Positions 38,529-49,501 of a stretch of DNA of 64,000 nt are shown here, piece by piece. Below the pieces are notes generated by a model. That model was not told the DNA's origin and made no database searches. It was given only the letters and a program-made list of their open reading frames with translations. The position numbers were made by a program, and so were the translations under genes. The DNA is taken from the NCBI RefSeq assembly GCF_000019665.1, contig NC_010794.1, forward strand, positions 992,001 through 1,056,000, given 5' to 3'. The DNA is from Methylacidiphilum infernorum V4 (lineage in GTDB: Bacteria; Verrucomicrobiota; Verrucomicrobiia; Methylacidiphilales; Methylacidiphilaceae). The stretch's first letter is position 1. Each line of letters starts with the position of its first letter.

Positions 38529-39188
38529 TTACTTTTCGATAACTCCATAAATCATGAGATGTCGATCTGAAACCTGCTCGACCCTCAAAGGAAGTTTTTC
38601 GACTTGGATTTCTTCCGTAATTTCTTCAACGGTAAAAGAGGCAAGAAGGGAATTGTAAAAGTCTCTTTTTAAAAGGGGATGGCCGTTCTGGGTATATGTT
38701 TCCGTAAGGAGGCGCGCTTTTTCCAGGGAATCGGGCCTGACCAAGTCGACAACGAGGACCAATGATCCATTCTTGGAGAGATTTCTTAAAGAGGTCCATA
38801 ATTCTTTTGCCGAGGGGAGATGATGGAGCAAGCTGTTGGAAATGAGAACGTCAAATGAACGGGGATAGTTCCAGTAAGGCAATCTTCCTTTTATGAGTTC
38901 TATGGAAGCTAAGAGATGGTTTTCTTCTATCCTTTGTTGAGCCAAGGCGAGCATGGCCGGGGAGCCGTCCACCCCGATAATTTTTGCCCGAGGATATTTC
39001 CGGGCAAACCGGATGGCGATGTCTGCCGTTCCACAACCCATATCCAAAACTAATCCCTCCTTAAAATGAGGGAAAAGGCGTTCAAACCGATCGACTAGGG
39101 CTTGATGAGGGATGGAAAAGTCGGCTTGGGCATAAGCAAAAGCTTGGTTGGGATCAACCATGAGTTCTTCTTCGCGGATCCTTTCCAT
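38529..39188 (-). CDS. Class I SAM-dependent methyltransferase
   Basis: A 219-residue methyltransferase: motif I LVLDMGCGTADIAIRFA, motif II KIIGVDGSPAML, and the later ISNSLLHHLPS. No acceptor can be named. It follows the globin-Roadblock gene by 14 bp in the same direction, so the two are probably one transcript; the methyltransferase may act in the same signalling or haem-related process, which is speculation. Confidence 0.85.
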   Translation of the reverse strand: MERIREEELMVDPNQAFAYAQADFSIPHQALVDRFERLFPHFKEGLVLDMGCGTADIAIRFARKYPRAKIIGVDGSPAMLALAQQRIEENHLLASIELIKGRLPYWNYPRSFDVLISNSLLHHLPSAKELWTSLRNLSKNGSLVLVVDLVRPDSLEKARLLTETYTQNGHPLLKRDFYNSLLASFTVEEITEEIQVEKLPLRVEQVSDRHLMIYGVIEK

Positions 39189-39202: not shown

Positions 39203-40027
39203 TTACCCAGGGTTCACTTCTTTTAGACGGAAGCTGGATAAAAGAGATTGGATTTTTAGGGCGGCACTTCGGATTAAAAGAGAAATAATCCCTTCGGCGG
39301 TTTGAGAGGGATACAATACCCCTATGGCTGCATCGGAACCGGCCTGACGAATGTAAAGGTGGAGCATGCTCCCCGTAATTTTTATCTCTTCAAGACGGCC
39401 TGCTGCTGCCGCTTCGCATAACCGCTGGGCATGCCCGAGTGTTGAACTGACAACCGAACCGATGATGTTTGAATAACTCTCAGAAGAGCATCGGCTTACC
39501 GTTGCACCCTGGGTTGTAGAGATGGCGATACCCACAATTTCAGGGAATGCAGCAATCACGGAGTTTATCACCTCGGAAAGTTCCTGTTCAAGGTAGCGAA
39601 TGAGATACTCAAAGGATTGGATTTTTTTGTGCTCTTCGATCATCACCTGGGCCAAGGCTTCATAGGCTTGGGTCCAGAGTTGCTCTAGTTGCTTTGTCCA
39701 TTCCGAGCCGATCATCTTGCGCAGCGTCCAGATAAGAGTGTGACCGACTACAGGGTAATGCTCGGCTTTAACCCCGTATTTGACATGCCGCCTTGCCAAT
39801 TCCCTCGCTGCGTCCAAGGCCGCATCGATATCTTGAAGATTCAAAACGATCCAGTTAAGGACGTCCATCAATTTTCTTCCCTGCTTTTCAATATCGATCT
39901 TAAAGAGAGGCCGCACCTTGGGTTCCACATCAAAAAGTCTTCTATAAAAGAGTAGACCCGCTTCATCCATTTTATCGATAACTCGCAGCCAACTTTTCTG
40001 AATCATCTTGATTTCTTCGCGAGTCAT
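39203..40027 (-). CDS. Globin fused to a Roadblock/LC7-like domain
   Basis: A 274-residue two-domain protein. Residues 1 to about 135 are a single-domain globin closely like HGbI (49100): B10 Tyr28 (LLFYRRLF), E7 Gln49 (IEKQGRKLM) and proximal F8 His81 (LARRHVKYGV). Residues about 140-265 resemble a Roadblock/LC7 fold: a helix, the strand pattern FPEIVGIAISTTQGATVSR, a small-residue helix, then TGSMLHLYIRQAGSDAAIGV and a closing helix. Roadblock proteins such as MglB act on Ras-like GTPases. A haem-controlled GTPase regulator is a reasonable inference. No signal peptide. Confidence 0.82.
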   Translation of the reverse strand: MTREEIKMIQKSWLRVIDKMDEAGLLFYRRLFDVEPKVRPLFKIDIEKQGRKLMDVLNWIVLNLQDIDAALDAARELARRHVKYGVKAEHYPVVGHTLIWTLRKMIGSEWTKQLEQLWTQAYEALAQVMIEEHKKIQSFEYLIRYLEQELSEVINSVIAAFPEIVGIAISTTQGATVSRCSSESYSNIIGSVVSSTLGHAQRLCEAAAAGRLEEIKITGSMLHLYIRQAGSDAAIGVLYPSQTAEGIISLLIRSAALKIQSLLSSFRLKEVNPG

Positions 40028-40182
40028 ATAAAGAGGATCTCTACGTTTAAAATCGGTTTATAATTTTTGCAGATAAGATATATAAGATCGCTTAATTTTC
40101 TTCAAGGCAGTTCTTAATATTTATTTTTCTATTTTATAATATTATTTGTGAGGATTTTTAAGTCGTTGGTTTAAAGAAGGCC

Positions 40183-42615
40183 TTAGAAAAAATAGCTTAA
40201 GGTAGCCTGGATCCAAAAGGGCATTCCAGGAACGATGTTCGCGTAGTCAAATATTCTTGCCGACTGTATACCTACACCGAAAGGGAGCCAATATTTTTCG
40301 CCGGTGAGATTATAGAAATAGAGAGCAAGTTGGCAGTGAGGAAGGCTATAAGTGATGCGGCCGCGGATCACGAACTCGGGAGGAATAGAAGTAGAATAGT
40401 TATACCCGAGAAATTGTGAGCTGAACCAGCTCAATCCTAGGGTAAATCCCAAACCCTGGGAAGGGCTATAGTTGATCATGCCATCGATCACCTCCTTGGG
40501 CCAGCCGATAAAGGGATAGAGGCCCGGGGGGAAAAAACCGTTGTTGTCGAGAGGCAAAGAAAAGATTTGGGCGTAATCGGTCGAGTAAGTTTGGGTCTCG
40601 AACGGCCCGTGGCTAACGGCTGACCAGTTTTCTGTCCCGTATTGATAGGCATAGCCGATCCTAAGGAGCAAGGTTTTAAAAGGAGAATAGGACATGTTAA
40701 GTTCAAAACCGTTGACCGTCGTTTTCGTGGGCTTTAGGCCAACGTTGTCAAGCCAGAGAATCTGAGAAAAGCCGTCCCCCTCAATAAAAAGCTTGTTTTT
40801 AATAAGGTTGCATTTAAACCCCGCTTCGTACAGTTCGTCTTCCTGGTGGAAGGACTGGGAATTAAACAAAGGGGAGTATCCCCCAAGAACTGCCGCATCC
40901 GTGGTATATTCCAGAACATAGGTTAAATAGATACTTAGCCACTCTAAAGGCTTGTAGCTTGGACTGATGGAAAAAAGAGGATCGGATTGCGTGGTTTTGA
41001 ATGCTTTGAAAAGCATCGGCGGAGTTCCGGGAGGAGTTTCTGCTTGAACAAAGTAGTTGGTGTCTCTTAGTCCTAGGCCCAGGGCTAAATGATCGTTAAA
41101 GGAAAACGTCTGCTGGATAAATGGAGCGATCGAGTAAAAAAAACTATCGGTTGAGCCGGCAGAACCGTTTAATGGATTGAAGAAAAAGCCAGGGGGAGCT
41201 CCGGGAATCGGCCAAAGCCCGCCGTATTTGGCATGAGGATTGGCTAAGTTTTGCCGGAAAAAAGAAGAAAAGTTCATGTTCCAACTCGTGGGTTGGCTGA
41301 AGACCATATCCCAACTGTTCGCTCCCAAAAAAGAACTGGCTACGTAATCCAAGTTTCTCTGGATTCGCCATTCGATTCCACCGTCCAGGAGACCCTTGAG
41401 GGAAAAAGGAAAAGTATTCCGATCGAAGTGGAAATGGAGAAGACATTCCGTCCGGTGGTCGATTTCATAATCGCCGGCACTGTTAAGGCTGTAATAAACG
41501 GGAGGTTGTAAAAGACTTTCCCTGTTGTACCATACCAGGGTATTGTCCAGGATAGCGAGATTTTCGCTGGGTTGGAATTTTTGTACATATTGCAGTAACC
41601 CAAGGATCGCCCGGCCTTCCCCTTCAGGGTTTTGAAGGAGGATTCTTCGGCTGATCGGTTCAAGGGGGCCGGCATAGAGAGAGAAAGCCGGATTGTTAAC
41701 TGTCCCTACATTGATTGAAGAAGAAGGAACCGATCCGCCCAGATAAAGGTTGTTTGTGATCAAGGCTTCGGTTGGTCTATTCATCCACATGAAAAGGGGG
41801 GTATAATCGTAAGTTCCCAGGTCGGCGATGAGATCTGCTTGGTAAGTATCCGAGGGATGAAAGCCAAGAGTAAAATAGATGTTTTGTTGATCGTTATGCA
41901 CGTATTGGTAGTAGTTTCCGTTTTCCATCCCTTGGTAGCTGACCCTGTAGGCTAGATCAGGACGTATGGGCCCTCCCATGTCGACCATCCACATGTATTT
42001 TTCGTACATTCCAGTTGTAAACTGGGCTGAAGAGCGAAAAGAATCGAAATAAGGCTGCTTGGTTAGGTAATTGCACACCCCGGAACTGGTTTGCGTAGCT
42101 CCAAAGACCGCTTGGGCCGGACCCTCTATGAAATCAAAAGAATCGATCATGTTCCAGTTCATGGGAATGCCTTGGAAAGCTCCATTCTGGATGTTCATCT
42201 CGATGCCGTTTATATAGGGGGTGGCGGGATATCCCCTTGAAAAGGGAGCTATGCCTAGCCCGTAGTTGACCGAAGAATAAGCTGAAGGGACAAGGAAAGA
42301 CATACTGAGAGGGTCCAAAAAAGGTTGTAGCCCCATACCCGTAGCTTGAATCAGAGGCTTGTCGATGATAAAAACGGTTCTTGGAGTATCTAAAACGTCC
42401 ATGGGTCCGAACTCTTTGGTTGGAGAAAGCAAAAAAGAGGAGTTTTCTTCTATTTCGGTAGGGAGCTTTCCTTTGACCTTCAGGGAAGAGGGGGGAAGGG
42501 AATTTTCAAAACCCTCTTGAGCCTCTTGGGCCGTGGCAAAAGAAAGCTTGTCAACAAAAAGCAAAAGGGTTAAACCGAGTTGGGTCCAGTAGAGAAAGCT
42601 TTTAGTCCCTTTCAT
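40183..42615 (-). CDS. TonB-dependent outer-membrane receptor
   Basis: An 810-residue protein with a signal peptide (LTLLLFVDKLSFATA), a plug domain (TPRTVFIIDKPLIQATGM onward, with MNIQNGAFQGIP and the DSFDFIEGPAQAVFG motif), and a 22-strand-type barrel ending in a terminal Phe (ATLSYFF). It moves a ligand across the outer membrane using TonB energy; its ligand is unknown. It is the last gene of the nitrate operon, its ATG overlapping the narK stop by 4 bp, so it is likely made together with nitrate uptake and reduction. Confidence 0.9.
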   Translation of the reverse strand: MKGTKSFLYWTQLGLTLLLFVDKLSFATAQEAQEGFENSLPPSSLKVKGKLPTEIEENSSFLLSPTKEFGPMDVLDTPRTVFIIDKPLIQATGMGLQPFLDPLSMSFLVPSAYSSVNYGLGIAPFSRGYPATPYINGIEMNIQNGAFQGIPMNWNMIDSFDFIEGPAQAVFGATQTSSGVCNYLTKQPYFDSFRSSAQFTTGMYEKYMWMVDMGGPIRPDLAYRVSYQGMENGNYYQYVHNDQQNIYFTLGFHPSDTYQADLIADLGTYDYTPLFMWMNRPTEALITNNLYLGGSVPSSSINVGTVNNPAFSLYAGPLEPISRRILLQNPEGEGRAILGLLQYVQKFQPSENLAILDNTLVWYNRESLLQPPVYYSLNSAGDYEIDHRTECLLHFHFDRNTFPFSLKGLLDGGIEWRIQRNLDYVASSFLGANSWDMVFSQPTSWNMNFSSFFRQNLANPHAKYGGLWPIPGAPPGFFFNPLNGSAGSTDSFFYSIAPFIQQTFSFNDHLALGLGLRDTNYFVQAETPPGTPPMLFKAFKTTQSDPLFSISPSYKPLEWLSIYLTYVLEYTTDAAVLGGYSPLFNSQSFHQEDELYEAGFKCNLIKNKLFIEGDGFSQILWLDNVGLKPTKTTVNGFELNMSYSPFKTLLLRIGYAYQYGTENWSAVSHGPFETQTYSTDYAQIFSLPLDNNGFFPPGLYPFIGWPKEVIDGMINYSPSQGLGFTLGLSWFSSQFLGYNYSTSIPPEFVIRGRITYSLPHCQLALYFYNLTGEKYWLPFGVGIQSARIFDYANIVPGMPFWIQATLSYFF

Positions 42616-43886
42616 TTTTCAGAGCCTTCTTTTCGTGCAAGGGGAGAAAAGGGAATCAAACTTGCGGATGCTGTCGCCCTGGTCGGATTTTCAACACGAA
42701 GGCTTTTGTTTAATCTCTCCGAAAAAACGAGGGCGAAAGCCAGGCAGCTTCCCACGAAAAGAAAAAAGGAAAAAAAGAGGAATCCCAGGGCACAGGATCC
42801 GAAATGCTCTTTGACCTTCCCAAGCAAGATCGGCAAGAAAAATCCCCCTATACCCCCGGCAGCTCCAACAACGCCCGTAATGATACCCACGCAAGAAGAC
42901 ATTGAACTTCCCACCAGTTGAAAAACCGCTCCATTGGCTAATCCCAGGCATCCCATCAAACAAAAAAGAAGGATGATTTCGGCGAGGAAAGGGAAGTAAA
43001 AAGAGGGCAAGAAGGCAAGCAGGGAAGAAGTAGCGAGCAACGCCAAAAGGAGCTTTGCTCCTCCTACTTTATCGGCCAAGGCTCCACCCAGTGGTCTTAA
43101 AAGGCTTCCTGCGGCGATGATAAGAGTTTGGGTTTTACCCGCTTCGACTTTATCTATTCGGTAATCATCGACGAGAAAAAATCCCAGGTAGCTGGCAAGA
43201 CCCACAAATCCACCAAAGGAAAGGCTATACAAAAAGGCTAATAACCAGGGAAGAAGCTGTCGAAGGTTAAGAGAAAGGGCATAAAGATCTAATTTTTCTC
43301 TTTGGGTTTGGGGAGCGTCTTCGGCTAGCAATAAGAAGACGAGGAAAACGATGCCTAAAAGAAGGAGAAAAAAAATAAATACCGAGTGCCACCCGTAAGC
43401 ATGGGCGATCATAGGCCCAAACAGGGTACAAAGAAGGGTTCCGCTATTTCCACTGCCGGTTAAACCCAAGACAAGCCCTTGGTTTTGAGAAGAAAACCAG
43501 CGGCTGGCCATCGGGAGGGCTACGGCAAAACTGGCCCCGGAGATACCCAAAAGAAGCCCAATACCGTAAATTTCTTTGAGACTGTGGGCCGATAAGCCGC
43601 CCCACAACAAGCAAGCGGCGGTTATTCCCATGCCGATAAGAGCCGTTTTTTTCCCTCCAAAAACAGATTCGGCTAGACCAAATAAAATTCTCAAAAGGCT
43701 ACCGGAAAGGATGGGTAGGGCAACCATGATCCCCTTTTGGACCGGGGTCAGTTTTAATTCTCCGGCAATAAAAGTCCCTATTGCTCCCAGGATGACCCAG
43801 ACAGCAAAGCTGATATCAAAATAAAGAAAGGCACAACAAAGGGTTAAAACCGCTTTTTTACAAGGATAATAAAAGAATTTTTTCAT
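42612..43886 (-). CDS. narK: Nitrate/nitrite MFS transporter, NarK/NasA type
   Basis: A 424-residue major facilitator with about twelve membrane segments. The nitrate-porter region FAVALPMASRWFSSQNQGLVLGLTGSGNSG and a second signature near the end of the protein (GLANGAVFQLVG, with VVGAAGGIGGFF) support nitrate or nitrite transport. Its start overlaps the nirD stop in ATGA, and its stop overlaps the receptor start, giving tight coupling. Confidence 0.92.
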   Translation of the reverse strand: MKKFFYYPCKKAVLTLCCAFLYFDISFAVWVILGAIGTFIAGELKLTPVQKGIMVALPILSGSLLRILFGLAESVFGGKKTALIGMGITAACLLWGGLSAHSLKEIYGIGLLLGISGASFAVALPMASRWFSSQNQGLVLGLTGSGNSGTLLCTLFGPMIAHAYGWHSVFIFFLLLLGIVFLVFLLLAEDAPQTQREKLDLYALSLNLRQLLPWLLAFLYSLSFGGFVGLASYLGFFLVDDYRIDKVEAGKTQTLIIAAGSLLRPLGGALADKVGGAKLLLALLATSSLLAFLPSFYFPFLAEIILLFCLMGCLGLANGAVFQLVGSSMSSCVGIITGVVGAAGGIGGFFLPILLGKVKEHFGSCALGFLFFSFFLFVGSCLAFALVFSERLNKSLRVENPTRATASASLIPFSPLARKEGSEK

Positions 43887-44251
43887 GGGACTTCCTGGGA
43901 TAAGCTACGGCTAGAGGTTGGGGACAGCTCGATGGAAATCCAACCGCCGGTTATAAAAGTTGGGTAGGTTGTTGCTTGGTATTTATCTGAAATCAAGCAT
44001 TGACCCGTTTCCAGGCTAAAGACATACCCGTGAAGAGGACAGATCAAGACCTGATCATCGCAAAGAGCCTCTCCCAGGGGTCCCCCGCGATGGGGACACC
44101 GAGCATCCAGCGCCCAAATTTTACCCGACCTGGTTTTGAATAACGCAATATTGAGCTTTCCGATTTTAAAAGTTCTGCCGACACAAGCAACAAGTTCGTC
44201 GATTGGGCAAAGTAAGTAAGAGCCTGTTCTTTTATTTTCCTGAGGTTCCAT
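43883..44251 (-). CDS. nirD: Nitrite reductase small subunit, Rieske type
   Basis: A 122-residue Rieske 2Fe-2S protein. The cluster motifs are CPHRGGPL and CPLHGYVF. NirD partners NirB. I use the ATG at 44251 rather than an upstream start at 44347, since the extra residues lie in nirB coding sequence and look non-homologous. It follows nirB by 14 bp and overlaps narK by 4 bp. Confidence 0.9.
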   Translation of the reverse strand: MEPQENKRTGSYLLCPIDELVACVGRTFKIGKLNIALFKTRSGKIWALDARCPHRGGPLGEALCDDQVLICPLHGYVFSLETGQCLISDKYQATTYPTFITGGWISIELSPTSSRSLSQEVP

Positions 44252-44265
44252 GTTCGATTCCTCCG

Positions 44266-46713
44266 TTATTGGTTTGCAAAAGATCCGGGAATAGGGGATG
44301 AAGATTCGAATTGATGGGGATACTGTTCTTGCTGGGCGGCTTGCCAAGGATCGATGTAAGCTTCTATGGCTTGTTCTACTTCCCGGTCCAGCCGTCTTGC
44401 CTCTTCCTCTGAGAGAGAAACTACGGCTTTTCTTACATGTTCTATTCCTAACCGCTCTACAAAACTGTAGCTTCTTTCCGCGTATTTAGCGTTTTCGCGG
44501 TAATATTGAATAAATCGGCCTATTAACCGGAGAACCTCGGGTTGATCCTTGGCTACGGCCAAGAGATCGCCGGCCCTTACCTTGGAACCCGCCGCCCCGC
44601 CGACGTAGATTTCCCACCCTGTCCCTATGGCTACAACGCCTATGTCTTTGGTCGTGGCCTCCGCGCAGTTTCTCGAACAGCCGCTCACGGCAAGCTTCAT
44701 TTTTGCCGGTGATTCGATGCCCTGGAATTTCTTTTCGATAGCGATGGCCAGCGTGGTGGAATCCCCAACTCCAAACCGGCAAAAATCTGTGCCCACACAA
44801 CTTTTACACGTTCTAAAGGCTTTCGTGTAAGCATGCCCGCAACTCATTCCTAGCTCTTTCCAAATGGCCGGCAACTGCTCCTTTTTGATCCCGAGGAGAT
44901 CGATCCGTTGACCGCCGGTAAGCTTGATCATACCTACTTGGTATTTTTCAGCTACATCGGCGATCTTCCTCAACTGCTCCGCCGTGGTGATTCCTCCATA
45001 CATGCGGGGAACAACCGAATAAGTCCCATCTTTTTGGATATTGGCATGGACGCGGTCGTTAACGAACCTCGAATCGGGTTCCTCTTTATAGTCTTTGCCC
45101 CAAACCATCTTAAGAAGGCTGGCCAAGGCGGGCTTAGACTGTGCATCTTCCTTGCCTGCGGCAAGAGCGGCGAAGACGGCGGAAACCCCCCGGAGATCTC
45201 TTTTTTTAATTTCTTCGATCAGTTCCCTTTTGGTCAGGGGAATACAGGGGACATAGTAGTGGACGGTGGGATCCTCCGCAGCCGGCTCCTTTGCGGTTTT
45301 TTCCCACAACCTTTGAACGAGGGGTTTACAACTTCCGCAACCTGTCGCTGCCCGGCTTATCGCCATGACTTCTTTGAGGGTAGAACAACCTTTTTTAATC
45401 GACTCGAGGATTTCTCTTTTAGTCACCCCGTTGCAGTTGCACACTTGGAAGTCATCGGGCTTATCTTCGATTGCTTCTTCCCTAGTTTTCGTTGGGGCTT
45501 CAAAAAGAAACTCTTGAGGCTCGCAGTTTAGGGGAAGGTTTTTTTCGTAGAAGTGGAGGGCTTCTAACGATCTATGAGAGGGTCCAAGAAAAATGCCTCC
45601 GGTAAGCTTTTTGTCCTTGATGAACAGTTTCCTATAGACGGCCTGTTGGGAATGGGTATAAAGGACGACATCTTCATTTCCTGCAGGTTCTATCTGGCCA
45701 AAGGAAAGGAGATCGATGCCCGCAACCTTTAGCCGTGCAATGGGAAGTGTACCCGTATAGGAAGAACGCCAGGAAGGGTCGAGCAGTGATCTTGCGGCTA
45801 TTGAGGCCTGTTGCCATGCCGCATTCACAAGTCCATAGGTTTGTCCTTCAAATTCAATGCATTCTCCTGCGGCAAAAATTCCCGGATGGGAAACCGATTC
45901 CATTTGAGAGTTAACGATGATGCCCTTGTTGACGGCGATACCCGATTTTTTAGCCAGGGAACTGTTAGGGACTATGCCCGTCGCTATGACCACGATATCG
46001 GCCGCAATTTCATTGCCGTTTTCAAATTCTATCCTGATCCTTCGACCGATCTTTTGAAGCCGGGTCGTTTTCGTGCGGAGAAGGATCCGGATACCGAGTT
46101 TTTCAAGTTCTCTTTTCAATAGGGTTGCGGCAAGAGTATCGAGCTGTTTTTCCATCAAATGGCCCATGAGATGGACAAGGACCGTCTGCATCCCCTTTTT
46201 GTATAGCCCGTAGGCCGCTTCTATGCCTAAAAGTCCTCCACCGATCACCACCGCTTGCTCCGCCCCGGGAATTTGCTTGAGGATGGACTGGCAATCCTCG
46301 ATTTCCCTAAAGCTGAAAACGCCATCCAATCTGTTGTTATGAGAATCGTAAAGCCCGGAAAGGGGGGGTATAAAAGGGGTGCTGCCCGTGGCTATAAAAA
46401 GCTTGTCGTAGGGTATTTTTTCTTTATCCGTCCACACCTTTCGATTCGCCGTATCGATCAGCAAAGCTTCGCAGCCGGCTCTTACCGATATTCCTTGTTT
46501 AGAAAACCACTCTGGACTCTTGAGCTCTAAACCGGAAAAATCGATTTCGCCGGCAAGAAGAGACGAAAGCAAGATCCGGTTATAGCCGACCCTTGTTTCC
46601 TTGCCGATCAGGGTGATATCGTATTTTTGGCTACCTCCCCGTTCGACGAGTTCATCAAGAAATCGAACGGCGGCCATGCCTGCACCGATAACTACGAGTT
46701 TTTCCTTTTTCAT
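44266..46713 (-). CDS. nirB: Assimilatory nitrite reductase [NAD(P)H] large subunit
   Basis: An 815-residue enzyme that reduces nitrite to ammonium with NAD(P)H. Order of domains: FAD/NAD(P)H-binding part (VVIGAGMAAVRFLDEL, then VVIGGGLLGIEAAYGL and the GIFAAGECIEF site); BFD-like 2Fe-2S domain (CNCNGVTKREIL with CGSCKPLV); and the sirohaem/4Fe-4S part with CKSCVGTDFCRFG and SGCSRNCAEA. It overlaps nasA by 4 bp. Confidence 0.95.
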   Translation of the reverse strand: MKKEKLVVIGAGMAAVRFLDELVERGGSQKYDITLIGKETRVGYNRILLSSLLAGEIDFSGLELKSPEWFSKQGISVRAGCEALLIDTANRKVWTDKEKIPYDKLFIATGSTPFIPPLSGLYDSHNNRLDGVFSFREIEDCQSILKQIPGAEQAVVIGGGLLGIEAAYGLYKKGMQTVLVHLMGHLMEKQLDTLAATLLKRELEKLGIRILLRTKTTRLQKIGRRIRIEFENGNEIAADIVVIATGIVPNSSLAKKSGIAVNKGIIVNSQMESVSHPGIFAAGECIEFEGQTYGLVNAAWQQASIAARSLLDPSWRSSYTGTLPIARLKVAGIDLLSFGQIEPAGNEDVVLYTHSQQAVYRKLFIKDKKLTGGIFLGPSHRSLEALHFYEKNLPLNCEPQEFLFEAPTKTREEAIEDKPDDFQVCNCNGVTKREILESIKKGCSTLKEVMAISRAATGCGSCKPLVQRLWEKTAKEPAAEDPTVHYYVPCIPLTKRELIEEIKKRDLRGVSAVFAALAAGKEDAQSKPALASLLKMVWGKDYKEEPDSRFVNDRVHANIQKDGTYSVVPRMYGGITTAEQLRKIADVAEKYQVGMIKLTGGQRIDLLGIKKEQLPAIWKELGMSCGHAYTKAFRTCKSCVGTDFCRFGVGDSTTLAIAIEKKFQGIESPAKMKLAVSGCSRNCAEATTKDIGVVAIGTGWEIYVGGAAGSKVRAGDLLAVAKDQPEVLRLIGRFIQYYRENAKYAERSYSFVERLGIEHVRKAVVSLSEEEARRLDREVEQAIEAYIDPWQAAQQEQYPHQFESSSPIPGSFANQ

Positions 46714-48866
46714 CCTATCTTTTCCTTTCCGTTGATCGATTGGTTCTGTTGAAGATCATCAGCGGCTTGAATTCGGGCCGCGCAAAGCTTAAAGGACGGC
46801 ATGTGGGACCGGGGGTCATGAGCCGAAAGGGTGAGCGCGTTGGCCGCTGCATTTTCCGAGGGGTAAAAAGGGATAAAGAGGGTGTCGATCCGCCCCTGCT
46901 CGGTCAGTTTTGCTTTGAAGTAGCCGCTTCCCCTCCTTGTTTCAACCTTGACATATTGCCCAGTCTTGATTCCCAGCCTCTGTCCCACAGCTGTAGGGAT
47001 CTCCACGATGGGAGTAGGTTCTTTTTCTTTGAGTTTTTCGATCCGCCTTGTTTGAACGGCGGTTTGGTAGTGGTAAAAGGTTCTTCCCGTGGTAAGGAAA
47101 AAGGGATACTCTTCATCCGGTTCTTCCGCAAGAGGGATGAAGAAGATGGGGTGAAACCGGGCTTTCCCCTTTTCGGTGGGAAATCGTTTGGACAGGAAGA
47201 GCTCTTTTTGGCCATTGCTTTCGAGGGAAGGACAGGGCCAGAAGAGTTCTTCTCCCCGGGCAAGCCTTTGGTAAGTGATTCCGTAATAATCTGCAAAAGC
47301 TCCCGCCGTGGCCCTGCGTATTTCTTCGAAGACCGCTTGGGGATCCGAAGGAAAACCCTCTGTAAAACCAAACTGCTTGGCAAGCAACCGAATAATTTCA
47401 AGATCGGTCTTGACCTGGGGAGGGGGAGAAAGTATTTGTGGCCTTAGCAAAACGCGGCCTTCAAGGTTTGTCACCGTTGCCGTTTCTTCAACCCACAGGG
47501 CCGAAGGTAAAACCACGTCGGCGACCGCAGCCGTTTCAGAAAGAAAAGGATCGCAAACGGCCAGAAATTCCAATGAAGAAAAAAGAGCTTTTAGCTTTGA
47601 ATGGTTAGGGGAGGAGATGAGGGGATTGGCTCCAAAAACGATCATCGCCTTGACAGCGTCTTGTTTGCCGAGATTTCCGAGGGCTTCGGTTACGGTTATC
47701 CCCGGCCGAGGAAGTTCTTTTTCATCTCTTTGCCATAGAGCTGCGATGAATTTCCTGTCATTGGGATCGGCATTGTTTCGACAACCGGGAAGTTGGTTGG
47801 ACTTGAGTCCCATTTCTCTTGCACCCTGCCCATTGCCTTGCCCCGTCAGGGTGCCGAACCCACAGTTTGGTTTTCCGACAAGGCCTAAAGCTAGAGAAAG
47901 GTTTATGAACGAAAGGACGTTATCTACCCCGTGGGCTTGCTGTTCACAACCTCGACCGGTTAAAATAATGGCGTGGGGATGGGTTTCGAAAAGGTCGGCG
48001 GTTTTGTGCAGTCTATCTTGGGATATTCCCGTAAGGGCTTCGACCCGAGAGGGCCAAAAGGAAGAAATACTGTTCAATACTTCTTCGAATCCGGTGGTGT
48101 AATTTTCAATAAAAGACCAATCGATTTTATTCTTACGGAAGAGCAGCCAGAGCAATCCGGCTGCCAAGATGTAATCGCTTCCTGGCTTGACTTGGAGATG
48201 CTCATCGGCATATTGGGCCGTAGGGGTAGTTCTGGGATCGACAACGATAATTTTTTTCCTCTTTTTTTTCAGTTCGTCAAGATGGGTTTTTAGGGGAGGC
48301 ATCGTTTCAAGGGGATTGGCTCCCACAAGCAAAAGCAGGTCGGTTTTCGCTATAGAGTCGATAGGGAAGGGCAGGCCTCGATCTATGCCCAAAGCCATTT
48401 CTAAGGCTTTAGAAGCCGAAGACATGCAGTATCTTCCGTTGTAATCGATTGAAGAAGTCCCTAGAACAACGCGGGAAAATTTTCCCAGAAGATAGGCTTT
48501 TTCGTTGGACAAACTGCCGCTGCCGTAAACGAATAGGGAATCGTTTCCCCACCGGGAACGGATTTTAGACAATGATTTAGCGGTAAATCCCAAGGCTTCT
48601 TCCCAAGAAGATTTTCTCAAAGCTTTATCTTTCCGGGGCCGGATAAGAGGAGTTTTGAGCCGTTCCGGATGGTTGATCAGTCTGCCGGCATTCAAGCCCT
48701 TGATGCATATTTGCCCCTTGTTGGTCGGAAAATCTCTAGGCTCTATTTCAACCCCTTCTTTTGAGTGCATAAGGCTGATCGCACATTGCAACCCGCAAAA
48801 GGGGCAATGGGTTTTATTATATGCTGATAAAGCATATAATGTATTTATATTATAATAATAATGCAT
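46710..48866 (-). CDS. nasA: Assimilatory nitrate reductase, catalytic molybdopterin subunit
   Basis: A 718-residue molybdoenzyme reducing nitrate to nitrite. The N-terminal 4Fe-4S site has Cys21, Cys24, Cys28 (CPFCGLQC) and a fourth in QICIKG, followed by molybdopterin oxidoreductase and C-terminal dinucleotide-binding domains (FFLTTGRTFYHYQTAVQTRR). There is no C-terminal 2Fe-2S or flavin domain and no reductase subunit nearby, so the donor may be ferredoxin or flavodoxin. The ATG at 48866 is the only start before the cysteines. It leads the operon and is divergent from HGbI. Confidence 0.92.
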   Translation of the reverse strand: MHYYYNINTLYALSAYNKTHCPFCGLQCAISLMHSKEGVEIEPRDFPTNKGQICIKGLNAGRLINHPERLKTPLIRPRKDKALRKSSWEEALGFTAKSLSKIRSRWGNDSLFVYGSGSLSNEKAYLLGKFSRVVLGTSSIDYNGRYCMSSASKALEMALGIDRGLPFPIDSIAKTDLLLLVGANPLETMPPLKTHLDELKKKRKKIIVVDPRTTPTAQYADEHLQVKPGSDYILAAGLLWLLFRKNKIDWSFIENYTTGFEEVLNSISSFWPSRVEALTGISQDRLHKTADLFETHPHAIILTGRGCEQQAHGVDNVLSFINLSLALGLVGKPNCGFGTLTGQGNGQGAREMGLKSNQLPGCRNNADPNDRKFIAALWQRDEKELPRPGITVTEALGNLGKQDAVKAMIVFGANPLISSPNHSKLKALFSSLEFLAVCDPFLSETAAVADVVLPSALWVEETATVTNLEGRVLLRPQILSPPPQVKTDLEIIRLLAKQFGFTEGFPSDPQAVFEEIRRATAGAFADYYGITYQRLARGEELFWPCPSLESNGQKELFLSKRFPTEKGKARFHPIFFIPLAEEPDEEYPFFLTTGRTFYHYQTAVQTRRIEKLKEKEPTPIVEIPTAVGQRLGIKTGQYVKVETRRGSGYFKAKLTEQGRIDTLFIPFYPSENAAANALTLSAHDPRSHMPSFKLCAARIQAADDLQQNQSINGKEKIG
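48821..48835. promoter_or_regulatory. LysR-type site ATGC-N7-GCAT inside the start of nasA
   Basis: ATGC TGATAAA GCAT is a perfect dyad with T-N11-A geometry, as bound by LysR regulators. It lies 31-45 bp inside nasA. The same consensus occurs again at 48951. Confidence 0.5.
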
Positions 48867-49099: not shown

Positions 49100-49501
49100 A
49101 TGATCGATCAGAAAGAAAAAGAACTGATTAAGGAAAGTTGGAAAAGGATTGAACCCAATAAAAACGAAATCGGCTTATTATTTTATGCCAACCTGTTCAA
49201 AGAAGAACCTACAGTTTCTGTCCTCTTTCAAAATCCCATCAGTAGCCAATCCCGAAAACTAATGCAGGTTCTTGGAATTCTTGTCCAGGGCATTGACAAT
49301 CTGGAGGGGCTGATCCCTACATTACAAGACTTAGGACGGCGCCATAAGCAATACGGTGTTGTCGATTCCCATTATCCGCTTGTGGGCGACTGCCTACTTA
49401 AATCCATTCAAGAGTACTTGGGCCAAGGTTTTACCGAAGAAGCTAAGGCGGCTTGGACTAAGGTCTATGGGATTGCCGCCCAGGTGATGACGGCGGAATA
49501 A
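49100..49501 (+). CDS. Single-domain haemoglobin, Hell's Gate globin I
   Basis: A 133-residue globin. By memory the sequence corresponds to HGbI of Methylacidiphilum infernorum, a very acid- and heat-stable globin with tight oxygen binding. Key residues are Tyr29 (B10), Gln50 (E7) and proximal His82 (GRRHKQYGV). Strong SD GGAGGAA. It is divergent from the nitrate assimilation operon, so a role in scavenging NO formed from nitrite is plausible, though no companion reductase is encoded beside it. Confidence 0.95.

Follow-up and report, generated by a model that had tools for sequence, protein, structure and literature searches.

HGbRL, the globin–Roadblock/LC7 fusion protein of Methylacidiphilum infernorum: family distribution, constraint on both halves and candidate partners

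Introduction

The closest described system is HGbRL of M. infernorum (ACD83144; Teh et al., 2015, Sci Rep 5:11407; PMC4476040), which that paper presents as a putative globin-coupled sensor of 274 residues whose C-terminal part is a Roadblock/LC7 domain. A 2024 paper gives the same description again (PMC11203436). The published range of the fusion is the genus Methylacidiphilum, with absence from other phyla stated in PMC11203436 and in PMC4476040. According to the latter, the isolated globin half binds haem and forms a site-swapped dimer in crystals; in the closed form Lys52(E10) lies on the haem, giving Lys52–His hexacoordination, helix E shifts strongly with ligand and oxygenation of the ferrous form is slow. 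The same paper names MglB–MglA as the bacterial model for the Roadblock domain, describes a further Roadblock gene that is preceded, at a distance of 183 bp, by a gene for an MglA-like GTPase, and offers a methyltransferase in the HGbRL operon as an alternative output. In the literature we found no report of contact between HGbRL and the GTPase or of GAP activity, and no experiment on full-length HGbRL or its ligand.

HemAT and RsbR resemble HGbRL in carrying the globin N-terminally and a signalling module C-terminally (PMC4476040). In sensors of the HemAT/RsbR type the output is a chemotaxis or STAS domain, whereas that of HGbRL is Roadblock/LC7, and HGbRL further differs from them in having a globin of the flavohaemoglobin/HGbI type. 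HGbI (PDB entry 3S1I) shares 38% identity with the HGbRL globin half, and the two have Tyr(B10), Gln(E7), Lys(E10) and the proximal histidine in common; HGbI is nevertheless a single domain with an ordinary globin fold and Gln(E7) in its pocket, while HGbRL is site-swapped and Lys-ligated. MglB of Thermus and Myxococcus, a GTPase-activating protein of MglA, has a Roadblock/LC7 domain like that of HGbRL, but HGbRL lacks the adjoining MglA gene of an MglB-type neighbourhood.

Identity and architecture of the gene

The window analysed here is a 64,000-nucleotide stretch of the M. infernorum V4 chromosome (NC_010794.1, positions 992,001 to 1,056,000). It contains an open reading frame at 39203-40027 on the minus strand which begins with ATG, ends with TAA and encodes 274 amino acids, in agreement with the published length of HGbRL. 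The features of the gene are as follows.

39203-40027, minus strand: HGbRL gene, fusion of globin and Roadblock/LC7 (open reading frame, Pfam, PDB identity)
39626-40027, minus strand: globin domain, residues 1-134, with Tyr28(B10), Gln49(E7), Lys52(E10) and His81(F8) (Pfam, PDB identity)
39206-39625, minus strand: Roadblock/LC7 domain and linker, residues 135-274 (Pfam, orthologue matches, hhalign)

In a search of solved structures, residues 1-134 were found to be those of PDB entries 3WFW and 3WFX letter for letter; the depositors named the molecule 'Hemoglobin-like flavoprotein fused to Roadblock/LC7 domain'. The published protein has the same methyltransferase downstream and the same chromosomal GTPase/Roadblock pair with its 183-bp gap, and no difference was seen in the sequence compared. 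By these matches the reading frame is almost certainly that of HGbRL, with its globin–Roadblock architecture. An earlier note on this DNA had placed the two domains in one reading frame, and Pfam bears this out: Globin (PF00042) matches residues 27-129 with E = 2.8e-14 (54.1 bits against a cutoff of 22) and Robl_LC7 (PF03259) matches residues 162-238 of the full-length protein with E = 9.5e-05 (22.5 bits, just below the 23-bit cutoff). The same note knew of no described globin–Roadblock architecture. On this point it was mistaken, as the same protein has been published as HGbRL (PMC4476040; PDB entries 3WFW and 3WFX) and the architecture is thus already catalogued as that of a putative sensor.

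Since both the literature and the PDB already contain the fusion, it is not a discovery; protein, architecture and GTPase hypothesis have all been published. Our additions, namely a second genus, constraint on both halves, co-occurrence with partners and the nitrate context, are modest and do not amount to a new kind of system. The accessible part of PMC4476040 contains no discussion of the nitrate-cluster setting.

Distribution

A search of 388 genomes from the phylum, and of 40 relatives, found the complete fusion in five Methylacidiphilum genomes and in G005, a genome from another genus of the family. The G005 fusion is intact, with 263 amino acids, a GTG start and 50% identity, and this occurrence widens the published range to a second genus of the family. 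We note that one Methylacidiphilum genome (G003) also carries a second copy (L040:4100-4940) in which the globin frame is intact and the Roadblock part contains many stops; it belongs to a repeated block that also contains AmtB and ribonucleotide reductase fragments.

The globin half

The globin half also matches the NCBIfam flavohaemoprotein family. The proximal histidine is present as His81(F8) in all six HGbRL orthologues, and Tyr28(B10), Gln49(E7) and Lys52(E10) are likewise unchanged in each. The same is true of Trp59, regarded as a switch residue in PMC4476040. Arg3, Asp68, Ala69 and Ala70, which that paper links to the fused helix or its motion and which are only some of the helix-linked residues, differ among the orthologues, most of all in G005. 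The earlier proposal of the same HGbI-type pocket therefore stands for the sequence, in which Tyr28, Gln49 and His81 are invariant, but fails for the structure, in which Lys52(E10) ligates the haem of a site-swapped dimer.

The Roadblock/LC7 half

Although the full-length protein scores just under the Pfam cutoff, its C-terminal half alone (residues 135-274) scores above it (E = 2.4e-05, 24.4 bits, cutoff 23). All six orthologous C-terminal halves match Robl_LC7, the best with E = 8.5e-08. Alignment of the C-terminal profile with a profile of standalone Roadblock proteins (12 proteins from the same order as Methylacidiphilum) using hhalign gave a probability of 99.5% and E = 3.2e-23 over 123 columns. 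Against solved structures, the same C-terminal profile ranked Roadblock chains first: the archaeal protein 9jue (6.5e-08), then 7f8m (5.4e-05), followed by MglB (3t1s; 0.0044), a distant relative with a poorer score than the other two. An AlphaFold model of this half, built from two sequences (the window and L001), has a mean pLDDT of 50. In this low-confidence model the elements run helix, two strands, two helices, three strands, helix, and the top Foldseek matches are Roadblock chains with TM scores of about 0.4; this predicted order and the best fold matches fit Roadblock proteins and lend weak support. The single-sequence Pfam score at the cutoff and the low pLDDT could be read to mean that the C-terminal half is an unrelated α/β domain falsely matched to Roadblock, but the agreement of all six orthologues, the hhalign result and the precedence of solved Roadblock chains make this extremely improbable. 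By profile comparison, the C-terminal half is a real Roadblock domain.

At increasing distance the globin and Roadblock halves have identities of 87 versus 76%, 80 versus 62% and 62 versus 36%. The measurable dN/dS values were 0.04-0.10 (globin half) and 0.06-0.21 (Roadblock half). The Roadblock half thus evolves faster than the globin half and is still under purifying selection; with dN/dS low in both, the reading frame did not arise by chance but is a true gene of two domains. In alignments of Roadblock proteins, HGbRL lacks the ATTDGLPVAHS-type and GLIHLEAR motifs that are conserved in GTPase-linked members. Judged from these alignments, its GTPase-binding surface may have changed, and binding to the same GTPase is therefore not to be assumed.

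Genomic context

The neighbouring features of the window are listed below.

38529-39188, minus strand: SAM-dependent methyltransferase (ACD83143 in PMC4476040; Pfam Methyltransf_25, 9.8e-18)
40028-40182, minus strand: intergenic spacer ahead of HGbRL, part of it conserved across five species (alignment)
40183-42615, minus strand: TonB-dependent-receptor-like outer-membrane protein (weak Plug match, E = 0.014)
42612-48866, minus strand: nitrate-assimilation genes, comprising the four that follow
42612-43886, minus strand: NarK-type transporter
43883-44347, minus strand: NirD-like protein
44266-46713, minus strand: NirB
46710-48866, minus strand: NasC/NasA
49100-49501, plus strand: HGbI, a single-domain globin at the far end of the nitrate cluster (open reading frame, globin search of the genome itself)

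HGbRL ends a same-strand run of NasC, NirB, NirD, NarK and receptor genes. Its reported position next to the nitrate operon is correct in that the nitrate genes lie upstream on the same strand, with the receptor-like gene in between. The order of nas genes, receptor, HGbRL and methyltransferase is kept within the compared stretches of all five Methylacidiphilum genomes, the receptor-like gene holding its place in each. The receptor-like protein is barely matched by Pfam, yet has 14-21 paralogue matches per Methylacidiphilum genome.

The intergenic region 40028-40182 is probably a promoter or control region of HGbRL's own, as suggested by the conservation of the upstream block in all five Methylacidiphilum genomes; no clean sigma-70 match was found inside it. 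In the conserved block (approximately 40040-40100) three genomes (G001, G003 and G004) have the palindrome TTTACA-N5-TGTAAA. It is absent from the window, and we have dropped it as evidence of a regulator of HGbRL.

HGbI is intact in M. infernorum, while a frameshift and stops disrupt the G002 counterpart. In G004 no HGbI was present between NasA and the nitrate-binding-protein gene, and HGbI was not found in G001 or G003 (loci compared with the window: L038:1777-2042 and L065). From this loss or absence in G001-G004 it follows that HGbRL is the sole globin of the HGbI/HGbRL type in the nitrate cluster of most of the sampled Methylacidiphilum species. In two sister-genus genomes (G006 and G009) the nitrate operon itself includes a different single-domain globin, placed between nirD and the gene for the NarK-type transporter (L069:6525-6974 and L071:10768-11217). 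The nas genes of M. fumariolicum rise 9- to 45-fold on nitrate (PMC5623727); the accessible main text of the M. fumariolicum transcriptome papers, PMC5623727 included, gives no value for HGbRL. The G005 fusion lies away from both the nitrate genes and any methyltransferase partner, and its separation from the nitrate genes weakens the nitrate link.

Candidate partners

The methyltransferase frame at 38529-39188 was correctly placed by the earlier note: it is on the same strand as HGbRL and separated from it by 14 bp. It adjoins HGbRL in all five Methylacidiphilum genomes, with 61-75% identity, and no orthologue was found in the other eight Methylacidiphilaceae genomes. In G005 the top match, a general methyltransferase, reaches E = 3.4e-7 and 31% identity.

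A GTPase gene (ACD84469) and a Roadblock gene (ACD84470) with a 183-bp gap between them are found elsewhere on the M. infernorum chromosome (G000:C1:2233672-2234754). The search used an approximate Thermus-like MglA as query, and the match was confirmed by its position and by the published 183-bp gap. This GTPase is more than 1 Mb from HGbRL, beside another Roadblock gene. It occurs in all 13 Methylacidiphilaceae genomes, including G005, where it likewise adjoins a Roadblock gene. The GTPase is therefore a candidate partner always available to the fusion and the methyltransferase one that can be absent, a statement of co-occurrence rather than interaction which draws on one independent genus. 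The field of candidate partners is narrowed to this extent, and in Methylacidiphilum the setting is that of nitrate assimilation. A third Robl_LC7 match in the same genome (C1:617260) has E = 0.02, below the cutoff, and one internal stop; because a transporter-like reading frame occupies the region, we set it aside as probably due to chance.

Proposed mechanism and alternative outputs

In our view, the distribution and context speak for a haem sensor that is linked to nitrogen-oxide metabolism and has its output through the Roadblock half. NO or O2, the presumed ligands, would displace Lys52 from the haem; the fused E/F helix would then bend and the two H helices shift, so that the two Roadblock domains may become differently spaced or paired. 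These domains could in turn make the chromosomal MglA-like GTPase more or less active or available, either by acting on it themselves or by pairing with the Roadblock protein that partners it. Nitrate assimilation and nitrogen-oxide handling would probably be the physiological setting. That HGbRL acts as a ligand sensor is likely, and that its output is the MglA-like GTPase is a tentative reading with somewhat less than an even chance. The explanation taken whole, a haem sensor in a nitrogen-oxide setting with Roadblock output through the GTPase, falls just short of even. The specific picture of a haem-gated MglA-like GTPase switch, in which NO or O2 re-pairs the Roadblock domains and so conveys nitrate/NO status to the GTPase in non-motile methanotrophs, is rather unlikely to hold in every part. 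If the GTPase link is true, this would to our knowledge be the first case of a bacterial Ras-like switch that receives a gas-sensing input.

HGbRL might instead signal to the methyltransferase, the globin ligand altering methylation of a target molecule, as put forward in PMC4476040. The short same-strand gap and the adjoining gene pair of every Methylacidiphilum genome are what would be expected of such a pair; the intact G005 fusion without a methyltransferase orthologue speaks against it, because it means that the methyltransferase is not required wherever the fusion exists, and we consider this output improbable. A somewhat better, though still unlikely, alternative is that the globin half is an NO or O2 enzyme, for example one that shields nitrate assimilation by NO dioxygenation, while the Roadblock half mainly dimerises or docks and has no GTPase output. 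Across the family globins recur in or beside nitrate-assimilation genes, the globin half of HGbRL is the more conserved, and the second copy in G003 retains an intact frame for the globin part only. The fusion has no reductase domain, however, the Lys–His hexacoordination and large conformational change described in PMC4476040 are more sensor-like, and the Roadblock half is itself under purifying selection.

We note finally the arrangement at one GTPase locus (L043:4883-6755), where a DUF4388-like reading frame, the GTPase and a Roadblock gene stand in a row directly before the ATP synthase genes. The GTPase at this locus has THQD in place of the usual NKxD.
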